DNA of 64,000 nt from Debaryomyces hansenii CBS767 (lineage: Eukaryota > Ascomycota > Pichiomycetes > Serinales > Debaryomycetaceae): contig NC_006047.2 of assembly GCF_000006445.2 (NCBI RefSeq), positions 1,922,001 to 1,986,000 of the forward strand, in the 5' to 3' direction. Position 1 is the first letter of the stretch; the number at the start of each line of letters is the position of its first letter. Positions 1 through 57,207 of this stretch are shown here, one piece after another. A program made the translations under genes and the position numbers. The notes under the pieces were generated by a model. The model saw only the letters and a list, made by a program, of their open reading frames with translations, was not told the DNA's origin and made no database searches.

Positions 1-476
1 TCGTCCTGAATGTTCTTGGCCACCAACATAATTTTATCCCAGCCTTGAATCTCTTCAACAGGTATATCTTTGTAATGTTCTAAATATTTCTTTTCAAAAT
101 TTGATATATACAATTCATATGCGGAAAGCAAGGTTTTAGTAGTAGTATATCCATAATGGAATCCCATTCTACGGTACACTTTGTCGTTAACATTATGTAA
201 GATCTCTTGTAAAATTTCATCTTTTTTCACATATTCAGTTTCCCTAAATGGCCTTTTATCAATAAATTCGGGAATAAGAATTTCCTTAATTATTCCGTTG
301 AATATAGAATCGTAAATCCCAAAGGTTATACAACAGTACAAAGTGAATGCAATAATACCAAAAAATGTACCAAGAACTAGTGGTATATCTCCCCACCTAA
401 AACAAGCAATAAATACAGTTAACAAATAAACACCCAATGCTTTCCACGGAAAGTTTGATTTGAACCAATGTGCCAT
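1..476 (-). CDS. DUP/COS-like two-membrane-segment protein, copy 1 (C-terminus cut by window edge)
   Basis: The ATG lies at 474-476 on the minus strand and the frame stays open for 158 codons to the window edge, so the C-terminus is outside. The product starts MAHWFKSNFPWK. It has two hydrophobic segments in the first 65 residues and then the family blocks EFIDKRPF, KKDEILQEIL and VEEIQGWDKIML. It is closest to copy 4 at 4809-5408, which shares the FPWK start. The layout of two membrane segments followed by a soluble domain with a conserved Trp resembles the yeast DUP240/COS family. That resemblance is remote and no function is claimed. The family membership within this window is certain from the shared blocks; the DUP link is an inference. 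Confidence 0.75.
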   Translation of the reverse strand, partial: MAHWFKSNFPWKALGVYLLTVFIACFRWGDIPLVLGTFFGIIAFTLYCCITFGIYDSIFNGIIKEILIPEFIDKRPFRETEYVKKDEILQEILHNVNDKVYRRMGFHYGYTTTKTLLSAYELYISNFEKKYLEHYKDIPVEEIQGWDKIMLVAKNIQD

Positions 477-802
477 TATTATGTATTTGTCAATGGTTAA
501 TGTGAGATTTTTAGAAAGTGAATTTATATAATTTTTGGCGAGGAATTTTAGGACTTCATATTAAATCGTGTGATTAGACTGTATTATTACAAATTGTACT
601 TTTTCTAGAAGTAAATATATTTCGTATATTGGGTCGTATGCATTTGGAACATTAAACTTAGCATTATATTATAAAACAACGTGTTGTCTATATCTATAGA
701 ATTTTTGAATACCTCTAATTAGCATTTGATTTCGATACCCGCAAGGGGTCTTTGATAGTTCTCTTGTTTGAAGATCTAATAAAGCTTTGAACGATATACC
801 CG
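477..802. other. Intergenic, upstream of family copy 1
   Basis: These 326 bases lie between the start of copy 1 and the stop of copy 2. They are AT-rich. I see no further ORF, tRNA or clear regulatory motif. Confidence 0.6.
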
Positions 803-1411
803 CTAAATTATATCTGAGACATTTCGTGCATCTTTTATGTTACTCAACTCATATTCGTTGTTGTTATCTTTACCCAGCTGATTATTGTTGTTTTCAGGTG
901 CAATGATTGGCTTTTTTTTAGTATACTTATCAATCAAATCCGAAGAGACCACGTTGTCATAAGCAAACTTTAGACCATCATCTTGGAGGTTCTTAGCTAC
1001 TAACATACTTTTATCCCACCCTTGAATTTCTTCAGCAGATATAGCTTCGTAATGTTCTAAATATTTTCTTTCAAGCGTCATTATCTTCCAATTATATCCG
1101 GAAAGTAAGTTTGTAACATTAGTGTAGCCATACACTTTGTTGTTAACGCTATGTAGGATCTCTTGTAAAATTTCTTCCCTTTTCCTATGTTCAACTTCCC
1201 TAAATGGCCTTTTAACAATAAATTCTGGAATAAGGATCCCATCAAATATTCCATTGAATATAGGATTATAAATTTCAAAGGTTATAGCGAATAAGAAATT
1301 AAAGCAATAGTACCAAAATTCAAAAACTAGTTGAGTAGGTCTCCACCAAAAAGTAGCAACATATACTGTTACCAAATAAATACCTGATACTTTACACAGA
1401 AATATTACCAC
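803..1411 (-). pseudogene. DUP/COS-like family copy 2, start codon lost
   Basis: An open frame of about 202 codons matches the other copies over most of its length: two hydrophobic N-terminal segments, the block PEFIVKRPFRE, the block EEIQGWDKSML, and a C-terminal tail rich in Asn. The first codon that aligns with the other copies is GTG at 1409-1411. No in-frame ATG exists between it and the upstream stop near 1530. An ATG does lie one base out of frame at 1411-1413 and reads only ATG-TGG-TAA. The simplest reading is a one-base indel just after the old start. I saw no TACTAAC branch site that would support a 5-prime intron. A functional non-ATG start cannot be excluded, since the rest of the frame is intact. 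Confidence 0.6.
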
Positions 1412-1703
1412 ATCTAACCTTATATCAATTGAGAAATGGTCTTCTGCAGTTACATTATTCTCGATGAGCCTTCGGAGATATAAGTGTTTCGAACTTCCTT
1501 GGGCCGACGTAATGATAATCTTTCTGATTTAGCCTGTTCAACCGCAGCTAACTTCATAGAAGCCTTTGAGCTTGAACTCCTTAAAATCGTAAACAGGGGA
1601 TAAACACAGCCAAAAATGACCCAGGAACTTCAAAAATATTATCAGCTCCTGACTATCTGAAGATCGACACAACTGTAAATTATTTCTAGACCTCTTTTCA
1701 ATG

Positions 1704-2567
1704 TCACAAATGCTGAAATCCCTCCGTTAGTCTCCCCTTCTCAAACCAGGTCCAAACCGCCTCAGCAAACAATTCGGGCGCTTGTCTATTCCAGGGATGT
1801 CTCATAAGCGGATGGACAACGGCAACAGTTCTACCGTTCATGATCTTTCCAATATCAGCCAACTTTTTTGCATCTTCGGGATGGTCTGCGGAAGGAAGAA
1901 ACCAGTTCCTTTTTCCGGCAGCTACAATCATTGTACGCGAAGGCCATGGAATAGGCGGCCAGGAGTCCACACCAGATAAACAACGAATTATCTCTCTACA
2001 AAAAGATAGACTACCAGATCGCAGCTCCTGTTGTATATCAGCACCATCCATAGCCCATCTAATTATACTGATGGGAACAAGTCTTTCAATCCTATTTATC
2101 GCCCATAACCCATAGGGCGCTATTCCAGCTGGATCTAGGTGCGGATAGACTTCATATCCAGATACAAACACTGCGTCGTTCACAACGTCCGAATATAAAG
2201 ACGCGACACTAATAGCAATGATAGCTCCCAAGCTTAGGCCAACAATCTTTGCCTTCCCCTTGATGGCAGTTTTACGTATAAGATGAGCCAAAAGAGCCGA
2301 AATTTCTCGAACGGAAAATAATTGTTGGGGTCTAGCAACCGCTGCATCGTCTGATACGTTTTCTCCATAACATGAGAAATCTGGGATAAGCAAATGGTAC
2401 TTACCCTTGGCTAAAAGAAATGGCACTACAAGGTCCCATTCACTCTTTGAAGTAAATGTACTTGGCACGAGAAGGACACTTTCTAAGTCTTCTTTGCTAT
2501 GTATCAATGAAGGATACTGAGAAGTATGAGGTAATAAATATAAGTCTGCCTGATGTTGTGTTGTCAT
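1704..2567 (-). CDS. Alpha/beta hydrolase-fold protein
   Basis: This 287-residue protein starts at the ATG at 2565-2567. It has the alpha/beta hydrolase nucleophile elbow GLSLG with Ser112, a preceding strand-turn region (LLIPDFSCYG, about residues 59-68), and a C-terminal MRHPW segment that supplies the likely catalytic His. No signal peptide or membrane segment is seen. The fold covers esterases, lipases and peptidases, and the substrate cannot be read from sequence. Its base composition is visibly richer in G+C than the genes around it, with codons such as those for WPPIPWPSR being GC-rich. It interrupts an array of paralogues (copies 2 and 3). Both points suggest a different history, perhaps transfer from a filamentous fungus or another lineage. 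The hydrolase call is sure; the origin is speculative. Confidence 0.85.
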   Translation of the reverse strand: MTTQHQADLYLLPHTSQYPSLIHSKEDLESVLLVPSTFTSKSEWDLVVPFLLAKGKYHLLIPDFSCYGENVSDDAAVARPQQLFSVREISALLAHLIRKTAIKGKAKIVGLSLGAIIAISVASLYSDVVNDAVFVSGYEVYPHLDPAGIAPYGLWAINRIERLVPISIIRWAMDGADIQQELRSGSLSFCREIIRCLSGVDSWPPIPWPSRTMIVAAGKRNWFLPSADHPEDAKKLADIGKIMNGRTVAVVHPLMRHPWNRQAPELFAEAVWTWFEKGRLTEGFQHL

Positions 2568-3307
2568 ATTTCTAGCAGGACAACTATAGTCTTCAATTTC
2601 AACACAACGAATGAGAAAAGGGTCTTCTTTCTAATAGAAATAAAAAATACTAGCAAAGTATTTCATAAACAAAAACTTGCTCAACTATTTAGCCAATTAA
2701 TCTCATTATGTCAAATTTAAGTTCGATCTGCAATCTCAATTAAGTCCCACATCTTACGTTCGGTAGAACCGACTCATTCCGTTATGATTGGTCGTTTCTA
2801 TTAAGAGGCACTTCGTGGCGAAAAGGCAACATTATAAGGTTAAAAGACGCAAGTCAACGCATACCAACGCCGATTGCTTATCTTTAAATCTGTACATAGC
2901 TCCTTTTAGCGTTCAGCACTATAGTATGCAGATGGATAAAGATACCTTTATGCGACTTCTGACTACTCTCGGAGATAAAACCTTACTAAATACGGAATTC
3001 GCAAAGAACCAGCTGATTTAATGCTAGAGCAGATGCCATTTCATAATGTATTCTTATCTGCACCGCTATATAAGAAACTCAAACTATATTAATTAAAATG
3101 CACATAAAATATCACAAATTAGCATCTCTCTATAAAAGGTATAAGCCCAATTTCCATGAAGTATTGATTAGTTTCAGATTAATGCTGTTTCTTGATTAAT
3201 GGTGTTGTTAAGATTTGTTTAATAGGTTTCTACATTTGTTTGAATGCTGAGATTCCAAACCCTGATAAATGAAACTTAAACAGTGTCGGAAATAAGCTTC
3301 GTATCTT
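2568..3307. other. Intergenic 740 bp, with a doubtful small ORF
   Basis: This stretch separates the hydrolase start from the stop of family copy 3. A 77-codon open frame runs 2788-3021 on the plus strand, but it opens with TTG directly after a stop and its first ATG is 45 codons in. The segment MDKDTFMRLLTTLG faintly recalls the start of PIF/Harbinger-type transposases. I do not call it a gene. No tRNA or other element was recognised. Confidence 0.5.
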
Positions 3308-43477: not shown

Positions 43478-45207
43478 ATGGGACCTTCGCGATTAGATAA
43501 TGAAGAAGCTGCGAGCTTTCAATCTGATTATGTTCCATCCATGGTGATTAGAGAGCATAACAAGCACATTATTCAACCACCTAATTTCTCATCACATTCC
43601 ATCTCAAAATATTTTAGAACGAGAATACCTTCCATGTTTTTAACAGGAGACGAGATAGATCAATTTACTTGGAATGACGTTTTTAATCCTTTCTCTTCGC
43701 TCAAAGAAATGAATAGTCGTCAGTGGAATTTCTTTTTAGTTGGTTTCGCAGGTTGGACTTGGGATGCGTTTGACTTTTTCCTTGTTAGTTTGAATGTTTC
43801 GTCTATTGCAAAGGATCTTGATAGAACTGTTAAAGATATCACTTGGGGTATCACTTTGGTGCTTATGCTCAGATCAGTTGGTGCCATTATTTTTGGATTA
43901 TGGGGTGATAGATATGGAAGAAAATGGCCTTATATTACAAACATGTTTCTCTTGGTTATTCTTCAAATAGCTTGTGGGTTCGTGAAAGATTACAATTCTT
44001 TTTTGGGAGTTAGAGCATTATTTGGAATCGCCATGGGTGGTATGTTCGGAAACTGTGCAGCTTGTGCTTGTATGTATTTTATCAATCGCCACGGTGCTGA
44101 ATTTCCCAATAGGGTTACTAACAATCTGTATAGTGGATGATGCCCCAAAGAAAACAAGAGGCTTCTTGTCAGGATTTTTTCAACAAGGATATGCCTTGTA
44201 TGTATAATCTTTTAAATCATACTCTAGAACGACAGATACTAACATATTTTAGCGGATATTTATTGGTTGTTATATTTCAACGTGCTATTACGGACAATTC
44301 GAAATATAGTTGGAGAGCATTATTCTGGTTTTCAGCTGGTCCTGCAGTAATTTTCATGGTTTGGAGGTTCTTCTTACCAGAAACAGATACATTCTTAAGG
44401 CAAAAGCAAAGGTTGTACGAGAATAACGAGAAAAAAAAACTGAAGGTATTTGAGTTTAGCCAAGAAGGGAAAAAAGCCGTTAAAAGTTACTGGCTTGTCC
44501 TACTTTATACCGTCTTTTTGATGTCCGGTTTCAATTTCATGTCCCATGGTTCCCAGGATTTGTATCCTACTTTACTATCAAAGCAATATGAATTTAGTTC
44601 TGATCGCTCTACGGTTACTAACGCTGTGGCAAATTTGGGTGCAATCACAGGTGGTTTGATTCTTGGTCATATGTCTACTTTCATTGGACGTAGATTAGCA
44701 ATTGTCGTGGGGTGTGTTCTTGGTGGTGCCATGATATATCCATGGGCGTTTATTAAAGGCTCGGGTATAAACGCCGGTGCATTTTTCTTACAAGCTGGTG
44801 TTCAAGGTGCCTGGGGTGTTGTTCCTATTCATCTTTCTGAATTATCTCCACCACAGTTCAGATCTTTTGTCACTGGTCTTTCTTATCAACTTGGTAACTT
44901 ATGCTCCAGTGCTAGTTCGACTATTGAGAGTACAATAGGTGAGAGGTTTCCGATTCACAGAGAAGGCGAAGAGGATATATATGATTATGCAAAAGTGATG
45001 CTGATTTTTATGGGATGTGTGTTTGCATATTTGATCATAGTTACCGTTTTTGGGCCAGAAAATAGAGGTGCTGATTTAGGAATTGAAAGAGATGAAATAC
45101 TTGATGAGGACGACGTTCACGATGTAACTCAAAAATCGATTGACTCGATTGAACAATATAAACCCGAGAATAACGAAAAGAAGCCAGCAATTATTCACGT
45201 AGAATAA
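43478..45207 (+). CDS. Jen-family monocarboxylate/dicarboxylate proton symporter, two introns
   Basis: The gene reads as two overlapping frames but is intact when spliced. Exon 1 is 43478-44069, exon 2 is 44134-44197 and exon 3 is 44253-45207, giving 536 residues. Across the junctions the protein reads NCAACALDDAPKK and QQGYAFGYLLVVIFQ, as expected for the family. It is a major-facilitator transporter with a long cytosolic N-terminus and 12 predicted segments. The Jen signature NFMSHGSQDLYPT lies at about residues 312-324. Jen proteins import lactate, pyruvate or dicarboxylates with protons at the plasma membrane. Whether this member is Jen1-like or Jen2-like is open, so no symbol is given. 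Confidence 0.9.
44070..44133 (+). other. Intron 1 of the JEN-type gene
   Basis: The intron is 64 bases with donor GTATGT at 44070, branch point TACTAAC at 44116-44122 and acceptor TAG ending at 44133. It splits a Leu codon (t/tg). Confidence 0.9.
44198..44252 (+). other. Intron 2 of the JEN-type gene
   Basis: The intron is 55 bases with donor GTATGT at 44198, branch point TACTAAC at 44237-44243 and acceptor TAG ending at 44252. It splits a Phe codon (tt/c). It is very short but has all signals. Confidence 0.9.
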
Positions 45208-47694: not shown

Positions 47695-50228
47695 ATGGCT
47701 CTGAAGACTAAAAGACCTAGGTTGATTCCTCCTGAACAAAGGAAAAAAGTCTCTAAAGCTTGCGACAATTGCAGAAAGCGAAAATTCAAGGTATGTTGTA
47801 TGTATTGTTGATTCAAAAATAACCTATGTGGCTTAAATACTAACTTGAAAAAGTGTAACGGCGAATCGCCTTGTCTATTATGTTCTCAGAAAGGACTAGA
47901 ATGCTTTTATTGCGATATAGATAGAAGATCACTAAAGGGGAAAAAGATATCAAAGACTGGGGACAAGCCAACATCTGAAATGAAGGAATCTATTACTCAC
48001 ACGAATAGTTTAAGTAACAACGACAGTCATCTACCTTTGCCTTCCGGTAAACTGATTATTTTAAGTATATCTCCAAGTGGCTTACAGCCTTTATTAAATT
48101 CAAGGTATGTTGTATGTATTGTTGATTCAAAAATAACCTATGTGGCTTAAATACTAACTTGAAAAAGTGTAACGGCGAATCGCCTTGTCTATTATGTTCT
48201 CAGAAAGGACTAGAATGCTTTTATTGCGATATAGATAGAAGATCACTAAAGGGGAAAAAGATATCAAAGACTGGGGACAAGCCAACATCTGAAATGAAGG
48301 AATCTATTACTCACACGAATAGTTTAAGTAACAACGACAGTCATCTACCTTTGCCTTCCGGTAAACTGATTATTTTAAGTATATCTCCAAGTGGCTTACA
48401 GCCTTTATTAACATTACCGTTAAGCGACGACGACAACACTGAATTACAAGCTGGTATTAATGGATCAAGGACAGACGATAGTAATATAATAGAAAATGTA
48501 CCGAGTAGTGGAGAGCATACTAGGCTATTGCTCAATTCAGCAGGAAATTTGCGGTACTTTGGTGAAAGTAGTCCATTATCGTTAATACAAGAATGCCGCT
48601 CAATATTCAAAGTAGTTCTTGGTTCGTCGAAATTTACCGACGACCCTAAAAGAGGTCGTGTTATGGATGAGCCTTCACAACCAAAGAAAGGGATTCAAGT
48701 TTTCTTACCCAAAAGAGAACTGTGTGATATCCTAGTATCTCTTTTCGAAAGAAATATTAATGATGCATTCTACATCTTCGACATGGAACACTTTAGACAT
48801 AACATTGTCAAGTTGGCATATAGTGAATCTCTGCATATTGATACACCCAAACTATGCTTGCTCTATTTTGTTCTTTCCATAGGTGCTTTTTTTGCAGAAG
48901 CATCACCGAACCGAATAGAAGAGCAGAATTTACGTCATGGGGCTTTCTTTGATAGTGCAGTAGATATGATGAGAGATTGTGTTTATGATGGTAGGCTATG
49001 GATGGTGGAAGCAGATTTTTTGAGACATTTTTATTATCAATCAAACTGTCAAAGAAGTTCTGCCTGGATACATTTGGGAACTGCTATAAGGCATGCTCAA
49101 GGCTTGGGATTACATAGAAAAATCATAAACGAAAAATTTACGAATCCATCTTACGTTATGCATAGAAGAAGATTGTGGAGATCCTTATTTATTTGTGATA
49201 GAATATATTCAATAGTCCTTGGAAGACCATTGGCTATCAATAATTATGATTGGGATGATTCGGAATTGCAGGAATTGAGTGATGATGAAAATGAAAAGTT
49301 TAGAATTAGGTGTCAAGTCGAACTTTCTAAAATTGCGCAAATTAATAGTAAGATAGTTGAAAATATTTACCGAGATGGAGTGATAAATATTAAACATACG
49401 CGAGCTTTGGCTATCGAGCTCAAGCTATGGTCATTAAATATACCTAATGACCTAGACATAAGCAATACATTGAAAGAAGATTTAATGTCACCCGATAGTA
49501 ATAATAACTATTTGTTAATGCAAGTCCATTTGGCACAATTGTATGGTATTATGTTGTTGTTCAGACCATTCTTAATGCATGTACTTTTAAGAAAATTAAA
49601 GCCTGGAACTTATGGCGAATTAAAAGACGACTGGTTACTTCTTTATTTTTGCAAAGCATGTATAAAATCTTCATTCTTGTGTGTTTGGTTAATAAGCTTT
49701 TATACGGAACAAAAGGGTGATAGAACAGAACTGTTTGCTATGAGTAACGGCTGCTTATTTGCGTCCGCGATATTGGGTCTCACATTGTTAGAGCAAAGAC
49801 TACAGAGCAAGCCAGATTATGACTATATAAGAGTCTTATCCGATACATTACAGGTAGCCAGTAACCTTCTACATAATGATGGGGCATTTAACCTTAGTTC
49901 TGAAAGATGGGGAGAGAATGTTGACAATATGGTAGCTGCCATCCCTAAATATCAGCATGACCAGACTTCTACTAATTCAGGAGATGCTTCTGACTCTTAT
50001 AGAAATGATTTCGAAGCATTCAGCAAAGAGATAATATTGATGGATAATGAATTTGGTGGTCTAAAAGATTTGACAAGTTTTCAGCAAGGTTTCATTCCAT
50101 CCGATGATGAGTTATTATGTGCAATGGGAATAGATCGACAAGAACTAGGATCCAATGAAAGCCCTCCTTTAGATGCTTTTATGTATGATTATGGTAAAAA
50201 AGATCAACTTTTCGATAGGTATATTTAG
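47695..50228 (+). CDS. Zn(II)2Cys6 transcription factor, intron within the zinc cluster and internal duplication
   Basis: Exon 1 (47695-47790, 32 codons) encodes a basic start and the first two zinc-cluster cysteines (Cys23, Cys26). Exon 2 from 48168 to the stop supplies Cys33, 39, 42 and 49 and the rest, giving 718 residues in total with spacing CX2CX6CX5CX2CX6C. A fungal_trans-like domain lies at about residues 210-430 (LGTAIRHAQGLGLHRKI, RRRLWRSLFICDRIYSIVLGRP). An exact 314-bp tandem duplication leaves two donors and two acceptors. Joining the first donor (47791) to the second acceptor (48167) gives the intact protein. Using both introns adds a 251-base exon (47854-48104) and shifts the frame. 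The targets are unknown; DUR3 lies next to it. Confidence 0.82.
47784..48412 (+). repeat. Exact 314-bp tandem duplication inside the regulator gene
   Basis: The segment beginning attcaaggtatgttgtatgt and ending with cagcctttattaa occurs twice head to tail, with donor sites at 47791 and 48105, exactly 314 bases apart. I found no base difference between the two units on reading them side by side. Only two bases (aa) are shared at the junction, so it looks like a recent slippage or end-joining event, or an assembly artefact. Confidence 0.9.
47791..47853 (+). other. Intron, first copy, of the regulator gene
   Basis: This is a 63-base intron with donor GTATGT, branch point TACTAAC near 47838-47844 and acceptor AAG ending at 47853. 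Its duplicate spans 48105-48167. Confidence 0.85.
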
Positions 50229-50832: not shown

Positions 50833-52964
50833 ATGTCAGGAACAGAAGCAATACAACTTTTGAATCAATCTAGTGGATATGGAATACTTGTTGGGGTAGG
50901 TGCTTTATTTGCAATTGGCATGATTTTAACCACAAAATTGCTAGAAAAATATCTCCATGAAGATGCAAAATCAACAGAAGTTTTTATGGTTGCTAACAGG
51001 TCTGTAGGGATTCCTTTATTAGCCAGCTCGGTTTATCTGAGCTGGACTTGGGCAACTGAGTTATTATGGGTATGCACCATGGTGTACAATTATGGAATTA
51101 TGGCATCATATTGGTATTCTGCTGGACTCGCAGTTCAAATCTGTCTCATGGCAGTGATTGGTATTGAAGCTAAGAAAAAGATTCCCGCTTGTCATACTTC
51201 TTTGGAGATTGTTGAATTAAGATATGGAAAGGCGTGCCATTTATTATTTATGTTCTTATCGTTGACTAATAATTTGCTCTCATGCTGCTCAATGATTGTA
51301 GGGGCTGCAGGAGCAATCTCTATTATTGCTGGTAATCTACATATAGTTGCCAGTACAATGCTTATTCCGTTTGGTGTATTATTGTATACCACCGTTGGAG
51401 GTCTAAAAGCTACTTTTCTAACAGATTTTGTTCATTCGTTCATATTGTTAATCATCCTATGCTATGTTGATACAGCTATTATTTCATCAAAAGAAATTGG
51501 GGGACTAGATGGACTTTATGATTTAGTATTAAAACATGAATCGGATAGATATATTGAAGGTAATTACAACGGATCTTTTTTGACTGGAAAATCTCAGGGT
51601 GCAATATTTTTTGGGATTATTCTAACCCTTGGGAATTTTGGACTAACAGTGATGGATTCGTCATTTTGGCAGAAAAGTTTTAGTGCTAATACAAAAGCAA
51701 GTTTGCCAGGTTATCTAATCGCTGGATTTTTTATCGCCGCAAATGTTTGGGGTTTAGGATCAATTGTAGGATTATCCAGTATTGTATTAGAAGGAACTCC
51801 TACTTTTCCTACTTATCCTAGGAAAATGACTCCCTCTGAAGTTAGCAGTGGATTTGTGTTGCCCTATACCGTAAAAGGATTATTAGGAAATGGAGGAGTA
51901 GGTGCAATTTTATTAGTAATATACTTAGCAGTGACATCCACTGTAAGTGCACAAATGATATCTGTTAGCAGTATTTTGTCTTTTGATATCTATAAGAAAT
52001 ATATCAAACCTGATGCTCAGAATCATCAAATGATCAGAGTTAGTCATTTTGGAGTTATATTTTTTGGCTTATTTGCTGCAGGATTCTCAGTAATGTTGCA
52101 TTATGTTGGCGTTGATATGACATGGCTTGGATATTTTTATTCAATGATTATTTGTCCTGGTACGTAGAATTTAAATTTCGCTGCAAAATAAAAAAAAAAT
52201 ACGCAGCTTTCAAATGATTATTAACATACTAACCCTGTCTAGGAGTAATCCCCTTAGTGTTTACCATTACATGGAGTAGACAAACAAAATTGGCAGCTTT
52301 TATTTCTCCAATTATTGGACTTGTTTGTGGGCTTGTTGTATGGACGACTACAGCATCTCATTATTACAATGAAGTCACGGTTGCAAGCCTTGGTGGTCAA
52401 TTGCCTTGTATGTTTGGTGGTTTAACAGCTCTCTTTTTACCTGGAATTGTTAGCATCGTAGTAAGCTTGACTATACGACCACATCGTTTTGACTGGAATC
52501 AATTAAGACGAGCAGAGCTTATTATCTCTGAAGAGGATGAACATATACCTAACCAAAAGATAGAGCTCGATAGTTCAGAGGAATCAAATGGCAACAAAGA
52601 AATCATTGATAAGGCGAGTCAGAAGACTAATATTAGAAATAGATATGATGAAACTGATAGTGATAATGTGTATGATGAGCTGCTTGAAACAGAGGAACAA
52701 AAAAATAGGTTATTAACGACCTATCTGAAGCTTGGTTATGCGGCATTTATATTTGTTCTTTTAATCACTTGGGTACTTTGGCCTTTACCTTTGTATAGAG
52801 ATTGGGTCTGGAGCCGTGCTTACTTTAAGGGTTATATAACAGTATCACTTATTTGGGTATATGGAGCATTATTAGTAATTGGTGTTTATCCATTGATAGA
52901 TGGAAGACATTCAGCAACTAAAATAATAAGAGGAGTATATAATGATTACTTAAAAAGAGATTAA
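50833..52964 (+). CDS. DUR3: Urea (and polyamine) permease
   Basis: The gene has two exons, 50833-52159 and 52243-52964, giving 682 residues; the joined reading is IICPGVIPLVFTITW. It belongs to the sodium:solute symporter superfamily with about 15 predicted segments. Dur3-type blocks are SWTWATELLW, IVGLSSIVLEGTPTFPTYPR, STVSAQMISVSSILSFDIYK and a Glu/Ser-rich loop before the last segments. Saccharomyces Dur3 takes up urea and polyamines at the plasma membrane and is under nitrogen control. A GATAAG and a tandem element lie upstream. A decayed paralogue lies 9 kb away in the opposite direction. A CTG at 51037-51039 falls where Dur3 proteins usually have Ser, consistent with CUG-Ser decoding. 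Confidence 0.93.
52160..52242 (+). other. Intron of DUR3
   Basis: The intron is 83 bases with donor GTACGT at 52160, branch point TACTAAC at 52227-52233 and acceptor CTAG ending at 52242. It splits a Gly codon (g/ga). Confidence 0.92.
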
Positions 52965-53472: not shown

Positions 53473-54729
53473 ATGACTAGAAATATTGGCAAGGAACAGA
53501 GAGAATTGAAGTATAAACTAAGACCTTTCATTGAAGCTCAACCTTCAAAATCAAATATTAAACCTGTGGAATTAGATGCAATAGATTTATCCTTATTTAG
53601 GGAAGGGCCAGAGTTTTTGGCGCAAAGGAAAAAATTAGCCGCCAAATTAGAGAACTCTTTATCTACGTATGGCTTTTTTTCATTGATCAATCATGGAATT
53701 GATATACTGACTTTTGATCGCTTAAGATCAATTGCCCAATGTATCTTAGAATTGCCTGAAGAGATTAAAAGAAAGCACCTTGCTGGTGCTTTAAAATCGG
53801 ATGAAGAAGTTAGGTCTAGGTCTTTAGGTGGTGAAAGAGGTGCTGGCTTCAAACCTAGGGGTTATTGGCTGATGAAAAATGGAGTAGTGGATGCAATAGA
53901 GCACTATAATTTTAGAGATTTACAGCAACCGGAATTTTTCGACGAGGATAAAAATTATCCGGACTTAGTTAGATATTACTTACCAGAAGTTGCTAGTTAT
54001 TATAGATTCTTGCACTCCTCCATCTTAAGAAAGCTAACAATATTATGCGATCTTATCTTGGAACTTCCGGAAGGATTCCTTTGGGAAAATTATTTCAAGG
54101 TCACTGAAAATAATCATCATAATTCCGGTAATGGTTTTGGAAGATTCATGTTATATCATTCAATGGATCCGAAGGAGGAGGAAAAGGTGGACAAAAATTG
54201 GCTTCGGGGTCATTCAGATGGTTCTGCTTTTACATTTATTACTTCGCAGCCGATTATGTCCCTACAAATCAGGGATTATTTCACAGGTGAATGGAAATAT
54301 GTAGGTCATACTCCAGGAGGGTTGATAGTAAATATTGGAGATGCTATGGAATTTATCACTGGGGGATATTTTAAATCTTCAATCCATAGGGTAGTGTCAC
54401 CCCCTGATGATCAGAAAAACTTCCAAAGATTAGTCTTAATTTATTTCTGTAACCCAAAATATTCTGCAACCTTAGATCCAGAACCTTTAAATTCTGCGAA
54501 ACTAAAAAGACTGGGGTATATAAAGCCAAAAATATGGGAGAAAATTACGTTTTCTCAATGGGATGATGAAAAAGGTAGATTATTTGGTAAAAAAGAAGTT
54601 AATGATGTAGCAGGTGATGAACCAAACTTAGTCCTACTATTTGGTAGACTCCATGAAAGATGGCATCAAGCCGAGCAAGATTTTTCACTTGAGGCTGCAA
54701 AGAAAAAATTCAAGGTTATCGAAGTATGA
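53473..54729 (+). CDS. 2-oxoglutarate/Fe(II)-dependent oxygenase, isopenicillin-N-synthase-like
   Basis: This 418-residue enzyme has the DIOX_N domain (about residues 30-150, with STYGFFSLINHGID) and a 2OG-Fe(II) domain. The iron ligands are His247 and Asp249 (GHSDGSAFTF) and His305 (SIHRVVSPP). Arg319 is placed to bind the 2-oxoglutarate carboxylate, although the usual Arg-x-Ser reads RLV, so the Ser is missing. No membrane or signal segment is seen. Substrates of fungal members are diverse and cannot be deduced. The upstream CACGTGA/TGTGGTT pair suggests a sulfur-related role, for example attack on an organosulfur compound, but this is inference. Confidence 0.87.
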   Translation: MTRNIGKEQRELKYKLRPFIEAQPSKSNIKPVELDAIDLSLFREGPEFLAQRKKLAAKLENSLSTYGFFSLINHGIDILTFDRLRSIAQCILELPEEIKRKHLAGALKSDEEVRSRSLGGERGAGFKPRGYWLMKNGVVDAIEHYNFRDLQQPEFFDEDKNYPDLVRYYLPEVASYYRFLHSSILRKLTILCDLILELPEGFLWENYFKVTENNHHNSGNGFGRFMLYHSMDPKEEEKVDKNWLRGHSDGSAFTFITSQPIMSLQIRDYFTGEWKYVGHTPGGLIVNIGDAMEFITGGYFKSSIHRVVSPPDDQKNFQRLVLIYFCNPKYSATLDPEPLNSAKLKRLGYIKPKIWEKITFSQWDDEKGRLFGKKEVNDVAGDEPNLVLLFGRLHERWHQAEQDFSLEAAKKKFKVIEV

Positions 54730-55680: not shown

Positions 55681-57207
55681 TCATGCAGAGACCAAAGTAT
55701 CTTCTATATTTAATGTTCTATCTTTGAGTTTGTAAAATAAGCTTTCCAAATAAGTTGCACCTTCATTTATCTCGTTGAGGAACTTAGAATCTTCTTCAAA
55801 TGGATTTTTTCTACCTTTAGGTGAATAAGTATGAAGTTTATCAATGAAATTGCCTTTCACCGCATCATGTGTATAATAATGAAAGAATAGATTATTAGCA
55901 GTGCCTTCAATATGATTTTTCTCCCATGCAAGTTGTTCCTCTTTCGTTGGTAAAGTTTTAGCATTGGACCATATGCCTGCAATAGCAGAAGCACTTGCTT
56001 CAATAGTATGGAAATTGATGGTAGAAATTGCAACCCCAACAGTTGCTAAAGTTGGATCTTCAATAGAAAACGTGTCATAATAAAGTCCACTGACTCGACT
56101 TAAATTTGATGGTTCAATAACTTTTAAATATTTATTAAGAAATGGATAATGATAGTGATATCCTGTAGCTAATAAGATAACGTCAAAATCCTTTTCTTTG
56201 GTACCATCAGAAAATAGAACTTCATTAGATTCCGGTAGAAATCTCTCAATGACAGGCTTCGTGGAAATTCCTTCCGACTCAACCGCTTTATCAATCCAAG
56301 GAAACACAAGGTGTGGCCCTCGTTTAGATATAAAAGTTTCTTTGGCTAGAGGTACGACATACTGCAAAATATTTGCACTACTGAAGCTTCCTCCAACTAT
56401 TAGCACCTTCTTATCCTTAAAGCTTTGCGCAGATCTATAAGACTTGGAGTGTATTAATATATCTGGATGCAGTTCATTAAACTTGGCTAATCCTTCAATA
56501 TGGGGTATATTGGGAACAGTATAGTGACCATTTGCTATTACAACTGCATCAAATTCCTCCTGATACCATTCTTCATTACCAGTTGATGTATGTCTTACAG
56601 TAACAACCCATTTATCGTTACTTTTGAAAAGACCTTCTACCCTAGAATTTTTTCGAACGTAATCATCTAAGTTTTCTTTATCGACGAAGTCGCTAAATCT
56701 CTTAGAAAGCTCATCATGAGATAGGAAAGGATAGATAGTTCGTGATTTATCCAAATATTTTGCCTCGTTAGGTAAATAAGAGAATCTTGTGAATCTTGAA
56801 GGGATATTTGTAAATAATCCAGGGAATACTCCACTTTTGTTCCACTCGAGCTCTCGAGCTATTGGATCTAATTTTCTAATAACAGGCTTATGAACCGAAG
56901 TTTTTTGTAAATTGTCTGGAATTGGTTGACTTGGATGGATGATATCCGGGTCGGCATACGATTCAGTATCAAGCAAATCTTGTGGTGGTATTGGAAGATC
57001 TGAATCTGCACCAGACGTTGCCCAGATCCCCCCTACTTTATCTTTTTGTTCAAATGCGACAATCTTAGTAAACTTGGGATCTATCGAGTTGGCGCTTCCA
57101 ATAGTTGAAGAACCGTCTTTGTTGGTGTGCAAAAATTCATATAACGAAGCAAGACCGCCAGGTCCCGCTCCAATTATAGCTATCGATTGTATGTCAAGTT
57201 TTGTCAT
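55681..57207 (-). CDS. Flavin-containing monooxygenase
   Basis: This 508-residue enzyme has the FAD fingerprint GAGPGGLA at residues 13-20, an extended fungal-type N-terminal domain, the FMO-like block SRFTRFSYLPNE, and the NADPH-binding GGSFSSANI at about residues 269-277. A late LLATGYHYHYPFL (about 345-357) is the ATG-type motif of the family. Yeast Fmo1 oxidises thiols such as glutathione in the ER, while other members oxygenate nucleophilic N or S. There is no membrane anchor at the C-terminus (TLVSA end). Several TGTGG cores upstream hint at sulfur regulation. Confidence 0.9.
   Translation of the reverse strand: MTKLDIQSIAIIGAGPGGLASLYEFLHTNKDGSSTIGSANSIDPKFTKIVAFEQKDKVGGIWATSGADSDLPIPPQDLLDTESYADPDIIHPSQPIPDNLQKTSVHKPVIRKLDPIARELEWNKSGVFPGLFTNIPSRFTRFSYLPNEAKYLDKSRTIYPFLSHDELSKRFSDFVDKENLDDYVRKNSRVEGLFKSNDKWVVTVRHTSTGNEEWYQEEFDAVVIANGHYTVPNIPHIEGLAKFNELHPDILIHSKSYRSAQSFKDKKVLIVGGSFSSANILQYVVPLAKETFISKRGPHLVFPWIDKAVESEGISTKPVIERFLPESNEVLFSDGTKEKDFDVILLATGYHYHYPFLNKYLKVIEPSNLSRVSGLYYDTFSIEDPTLATVGVAISTINFHTIEASASAIAGIWSNAKTLPTKEEQLAWEKNHIEGTANNLFFHYYTHDAVKGNFIDKLHTYSPKGRKNPFEEDSKFLNEINEGATYLESLFYKLKDRTLNIEDTLVSA

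Follow-up and report, generated by a model that had tools for sequence, protein, structure and literature searches.

When a splice donor, its intron and part of the following exon stand twice in tandem within a gene, can that gene still make its protein, and by which splicing route? The question is raised by a regulator gene of Debaryomyces hansenii CBS767 that starts at position 47695 and stops at position 50228 of the window, the whole stretch of 64,000 nucleotides analysed here (positions 1922001–1986000 of contig C5, which is 2,007,515 bases long). The GC content in the window is 32–36%, and the start of the regulator gene lies 37.8 kb from the contig end.

The regulator and its tandem repeat

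Positions 47782–48097 are identical to positions 48096–48411 at all 316 of 316 bases, and the two form a direct tandem repeat with a period of 314 whose copies share two bases (AA) at the joint 48095/48096. The exact 314-bp direct duplication announced in the original prediction is thus present, and if it arose as a microhomology-mediated tandem duplication, these two bases would be the only microhomology at the unit ends. The gene encodes a Zn2Cys6 factor, and each unit contains a splice donor together with its 63-nt intron, followed by 242 nt from the start of exon 2. The further statement that the repeat covers the zinc-cluster exon holds for the donor, the intron and zinc ligands 3–6, and fails for ligands 1–2 (CDNC), which lie in exon 1 (Table 1). 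A DNA search of the genome (12,181,948 bases in 8 contigs) with positions 47695–48450 found the locus itself as the sole match. A scan for identical runs of at least 30 bases at offsets of 30–3000, which covered 225,515 bases of the genome (145,515 of C5, the window included, and 80,000 of C3), found no other exact tandem repeat with a unit longer than 45 bases, so the 314-base repeat is neither a chance occurrence nor a common one in the part scanned.

Table 1. Coordinates in the window of the repeat, the splice signals and the coding parts of the regulator gene
Feature	Position	Strand	Basis
Exon 1 (32 codons): basic N-terminus and zinc ligands 1–2 (CDNC)	47695..47790	+	sequence; Pfam Zn_clus
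Repeat unit, copy 1 (314 nt)	47782..48095	+	sequence identity
Intron, copy 1 (63 nt): donor GTATGT 47791–47796, branch TACTAAC 47838–47844, acceptor AAG 47851–47853	47791..47853	+	sequence; paralogue
Twin donor GTATGT in intron copy 1; its use shifts the frame and gives 34–35 aa	47798..47803	+	sequence, splice enumeration
Internal (cassette) exon made by the duplication, 251 nt, frame-breaking	47854..48104	+	sequence
Repeat unit, copy 2 (314 nt)	48096..48409	+	identity extends to 48411
Intron, copy 2 (63 nt): donor 48105–48110, branch 48152–48158, acceptor AAG 48165–48167	48105..48167	+	sequence
Twin donor GTATGT in intron copy 2; internal exon 258 nt, protein 804 aa	48112..48117	+	splice enumeration
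Native exon 2 to the stop codon; contains Fungal_trans (PF04082)	48168..50228	+	sequence; Pfam
Premature TAG (stop at codon 131) when donors 47791 and 48105 are used and both introns are out	48211..48213	+	translation

The reading frames of the regulator were translated with table 12 (CTG = Ser). Zinc clusters of the Zn2Cys6 type have the spacing C-x2-C-x6-C-x5-12-C-x2-C-x6-8-C, and in the spliced 718-aa protein described below the Pfam Zn_clus domain (PF00172, 33.6 bits with a cut-off of 21) occupies residues 21–56; PF04082 is matched at 69.5 bits (cut-off 23). The N-terminal 121 aa match the LAC9, PUT3 and GAL4 chains at E values of 2e-4 to 9e-4, and the six-cysteine cluster together with the Fungal_trans domain places the protein among the Zn2Cys6 (Gal4-type) factors. 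It is also Fgr27-like, being 44% identical over 97% to P0014, which its source names Filamentous growth regulator 27. Several named relatives from CTG-clade yeasts are given the same name by their sources, and other named relatives with scores like that of P0014 lack it; the pairing of Zn_clus with Fungal_trans is common to the Fgr27-like CTG-clade factors and the regulator. Past the repeat some 605 codons of the regulator can be read without interruption, and there is no sign of decay. Among the titles listed for D. hansenii introns and alternative splicing and for DEHA2E none concerns this gene, nor was it found in the accessible part of a paper on hemiascomycete pseudogenes (PMC2876123).

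Splice signals and possible products

The two intron copies have the GTATGT donor, the TACTAAC branch point and an AG within 5–10 nt that are typical of D. hansenii spliceosomal introns, and they lie at a conserved position: a paralogue on C3 (43% identical) has an intron with GTATGT, TACTAAC and TAG at the same position and in the same phase, directly ahead of the third zinc cysteine, so the intron is older than the duplication. According to the available portions of two papers, the distance from branch point to AG is 5–10 nt in 88% of D. hansenii introns (PMC2483917), and branch-to-acceptor distances are predominantly 7–8 nt (as cited in PMC10711555). The AAG acceptors of the regulator fit the 5–10 nt range; the YAG that comes next lies at 46 nt, outside that range. 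AAG is unusual, as TAG is the acceptor in all four of the other introns checked (that of the C3 paralogue and three neighbouring ones), and the near sites may therefore be used less efficiently than assumed. We note that the close relative P0001 begins with MKKC, as it would if the intron ended in the same way in another isolate.

A second GTATGT, which the original prediction had overlooked, sits 7 nt inside each intron copy. Computed pairing with the U1 end is −6.9 kcal/mol for the upstream donor versus −3.6 kcal/mol for the downstream twin. The inferred donor of intron 1 of a neighbouring transporter gene has a value equal to that of the twin (−3.6 kcal/mol), and it and the twin donor at 48112 have TTGTATGTATT in common. 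The distance from donor to branch point is 52 nt for the near pair, 366 nt for the far pair and 41 nt in the C3 paralogue.

Splicing outcomes were enumerated by combining donors 47791, 47798, 48105 and 48112 with AG acceptors 10–56 nt past either branch point. Joining donor 47791 to acceptor 48167 removes a 377-nt intron and, as translation confirmed, yields the 718 residues with all six zinc ligands that the original prediction had described; the positions it gave for the donors (47791 and 48105), for the acceptor ends (47853 and 48167) and for the length of the internal exon (251 nt) also proved correct. With donors 47791 and 48105 in use and both introns spliced out, the protein is truncated, again as foreseen, to a frameshifted product of 130 aa, which nevertheless keeps a complete zinc cluster (Zn_clus 37.7 bits). 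The claim that the integrity of the gene depends on skipping this exon goes too far, however, because removal of 47791–47853 followed by 48112–48167 leaves an in-frame internal exon and an 804-aa protein that runs to the native stop and carries a repeated half zinc cluster.

With a CAG acceptor in the second intron a 792-aa variant is open to the native stop and its first zinc cluster is complete; if CAG serves the first intron, or the sole one, combinations of 706, 780 and again 792 aa result whose first cluster is short of three cysteines. This CAG, 46 nt past the branch point, was rejected as a working site: it is neutral to the frame but removes three cysteines. Retention of intron 2 alone gives 130 aa, and retention of intron 1 gives 38 aa.

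The two sets of donor, branch point and acceptor are identical between the copies, and because the introns are identical the choice of route must turn on distance, order and context. No predicted RNA structure favours skipping in a comparison with 40 shuffled exons. A structure that loops donor 1 towards acceptor 2 was rejected: the mean graph distance from donor 1 to branch point 2 was 59.4 in 100 samples (62.4 in 1000), the shuffled mean was 56.1, and 29 of the 40 shuffles lay at or below 59.4. With identical site sets and so many shuffles as close, the on/off splice switch that had been proposed finds no support. The available text of a study of Yarrowia reports exon skipping in 4 genes, one of which skips exon 2 in most of its cDNAs (PMC2911113), which means that skipping can be the prevailing outcome in a yeast. 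In the regulator, judging from the arrangement of its sites, the 130-aa reading is expected to prevail and the full-length products would be minor.

Fate of the gene and competing explanations

The reading that we prefer, and to which we give roughly even chances of being right, is that a recent tandem duplication of a donor–intron–exon segment, probably at strain level, has left an Fgr27-like Zn2Cys6 gene largely disabled but leaky. The spliceosome would mostly pair each donor with the near branch point and remove both short introns; the 251-nt exon would then be included, and most transcripts would end after 130 codons and probably be degraded. Two minor routes would provide the leak, namely skipping (718 aa) and use in intron 2 of the donor that lies 7 nt downstream (804 aa). 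Direct repeats can plausibly recombine back to a single unit, and since one unit could be deleted in this way, the allele would be unstable rather than a designed switch. Support for this reading comes from the exact repeat with its two-base joint, the intron position and phase shared with the C3 paralogue, the donor-to-branch distances (52 versus 366 nt), the spacing of the AAG acceptors, the lack of a structure that promotes skipping, the count of 4 genes with exon skipping in Yarrowia, the TTGTATGTATT that twin donor 48112 has in common with the transporter donor, and the lack of a repeated half cluster in 94 relatives (described below). It is weakened by the undamaged frame of about 605 codons, the AAG acceptor itself, the Yarrowia gene that skips exon 2 in most cDNAs and the absence of any difference between the copies, which also fits an assembly error. 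The "recent accident" that the original prediction offered as its alternative fits the duplication as found.

Applied to 0 differences in 316 bases, the rule of three puts the age of the repeat at no more than about 5 million generations for a mutation rate of 1e-9 and about 28 million for 1.7e-10; gene conversion would mask an older origin. Because the copies do not differ at all, recent origin, gene conversion and misassembly all fit.

The relatives give a limited view of these alternatives. A protein search found 65 proteins, the best thirteen of which (P0001–P0013) are unnamed, 99% to 50% identical and carry no Zn_clus annotation, as is expected if the intron parts the halves of the cluster and frames were called unspliced. 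A repeated half cluster was found in 0 of 94 related proteins (the half-cluster pattern had one match in each of 54 and none in 40), which is a weak check, since the full six-cysteine cluster stands in one frame in only 50 of the 94 and unspliced frame calls hide such a duplication; by this check the regulator differs from its Fgr27-like relatives in carrying the repeat. No repeated 8-mer was found within the first 320 residues of the 94 relatives. A frame that spans the repeat junction (P0066) had no match at E 1e-5 among 5 candidates, again a weak result in that the search, within its length limits, did not bring back even a single-copy relative. Searched as a 25-mer, the junction was absent from bacterial and archaeal genome contigs, which is nearly uninformative, and viral contigs gave one pattern match with no confirmed locus. 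The duplicated state is therefore seen in this assembly alone, an observation of little weight as unspliced frames and short-read sources tend to miss such a repeat.

P0001 and exon 2 agree at all but one of 686 residues (E406 to A, both in the standard code). As expected of a single-copy gene, the sequence of P0001 passes without a break from the final codons of the intron into the native continuation, and copy 2 of the repeat reads likewise. P0001 was not relied on as proof of a single-copy strain, a reading that would depend on its "lgn" kind of cluster (28 members) standing for short-word assemblies that break at repeats. No hit in the protein searches bore the name of D. hansenii, and for the single-copy C3 paralogue, too, the sole match at 99% is an unnamed "lgn" cluster, P0068 (31 members); the lack of an annotated protein for the regulator is therefore uninformative.

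That the repeat is an assembly artefact, with two contigs that overlap by 314 bases joined end to end and a true gene of one unit, is unlikely but to be taken seriously. The perfect identity, the presence of just two copies and a joint of two bases, such as chance gives in AT-rich DNA, would all be expected of it, as would the failure to find the junction in the protein collection and, with the reservation made for copy 2, the unbroken passage of P0001 across the unit end. Set against this is the lack of any other exact tandem repeat of such size in the 225,515 bases scanned, which argues that there is no general pattern of artefacts there; moreover, an assembler is more likely to collapse a repeat than to create one, and the pair of units (630 bases) fits within one long Sanger read, the method by which the CBS767 genome was presumably sequenced. 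Still less probable, in our estimate, is a gene that works normally because splicing has settled on one full-length route, either the 377-nt intron or the downstream donor. Both the 718-aa and the 804-aa frame run uninterrupted to the native stop, the rest of the frame shows no damage, and the downstream donor matches the inferred donor of the neighbouring gene in its context and its U1 pairing. The upstream donor nevertheless pairs better than its twin and is needed in intron 1 for any working product, and the near acceptor is normally spaced, so that no cause for skipping is visible.

It is very improbable that the locus is a young reversible exon duplication with three zinc-cluster products (a 130-aa competitor that binds DNA, the normal 718-aa protein and an 804-aa form with an extra half cluster), whose ratios would be set by twin-donor competition and skipping and to which recombination of the repeat would add a second, heritable layer. 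The least credence goes to a selected device, in which the choice among 130, 718 and 804 aa and the reversible duplication would tune the regulator and the 130-aa product would compete for DNA without the regulatory domain. A complete zinc cluster in all three products is consistent with such a device, whereas the occurrence of the duplicated state in one assembly (by the weak check above), the lack of divergence between the copies and the probable nonsense-mediated decay of the short product's transcript argue against it.

If the repeat is real, it works like two known kinds of change, the alteration of exons by tandem duplication across a boundary and the reversible tandem duplication that breaks a frame. 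The available part of a potato study (PMC4974935) describes a tandem duplication across an intron–exon boundary that copies ready-made splice signals and alters the exon structure, as here. In the potato case the donor of the new intron originated within an exon, ten bases distinguish the copies, and boundary-crossing genomic reads and RNA reads confirm the event; in the regulator the whole intron and its donor are copied, the copies are identical, and the repeat is known from the assembly alone. Reversible microhomology-mediated tandem duplications such as that of fission yeast ssp1, as far as the text available describes them (PMC13207564), are two-copy, frame-breaking coding repeats that revert by recombination, and the regulator repeat is similar and could revert too. 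It differs from them in having only 2 bases at the joint and in including an intron, so that splicing can bypass it. A real duplication would be a natural snapshot of the first step by which, in a yeast with few introns, a segmental duplication gives rise to a cassette exon, taken before mutations have built up. With its identical tandem splice sites at known distances and two donors that lead to different frames, it offers a clean natural test of nearest-site pairing in yeast; if the repeat is an artefact, the assembly at the regulator gene needs correction.

Chromosomal neighbourhood

General decay of the neighbourhood was considered and rejected for the two adjacent transporter genes. The MFS transporter gene at 43478–45207 (+) seems frameshifted and is intact at 536 aa once introns 44070–44133 and 44198–44252 are removed, and the sodium:solute symporter gene at 50833–52964 (+) encodes 682 aa with one 83-nt intron (52160–52242). 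Because both are intact with their introns removed, the duplication does not lie among broken transporter genes. The two introns of the MFS transporter gene are separated by a 64-nt exon, and an automated annotation could call it a pseudogene; the match of its second half to a sialate/H+ symport subfamily model is below cut-off.

A 2-oxoglutarate/Fe(II) oxygenase gene (53473–54729, +) and a flavin monooxygenase gene (55681–57207, −) lie near the regulator and the two transporters in this chromosome-end region; the best NCBIfam match of the flavin monooxygenase is trimethylamine monooxygenase, well below cut-off. We also note that about 70 kb upstream of the regulator gene (G000:C5:1899573-1902414, loci L040 and L041) there are spaced direct repeats at offsets of 1214, 1285 and 2499, with identical runs of up to 228 bases, which are possibly a tandem gene array.
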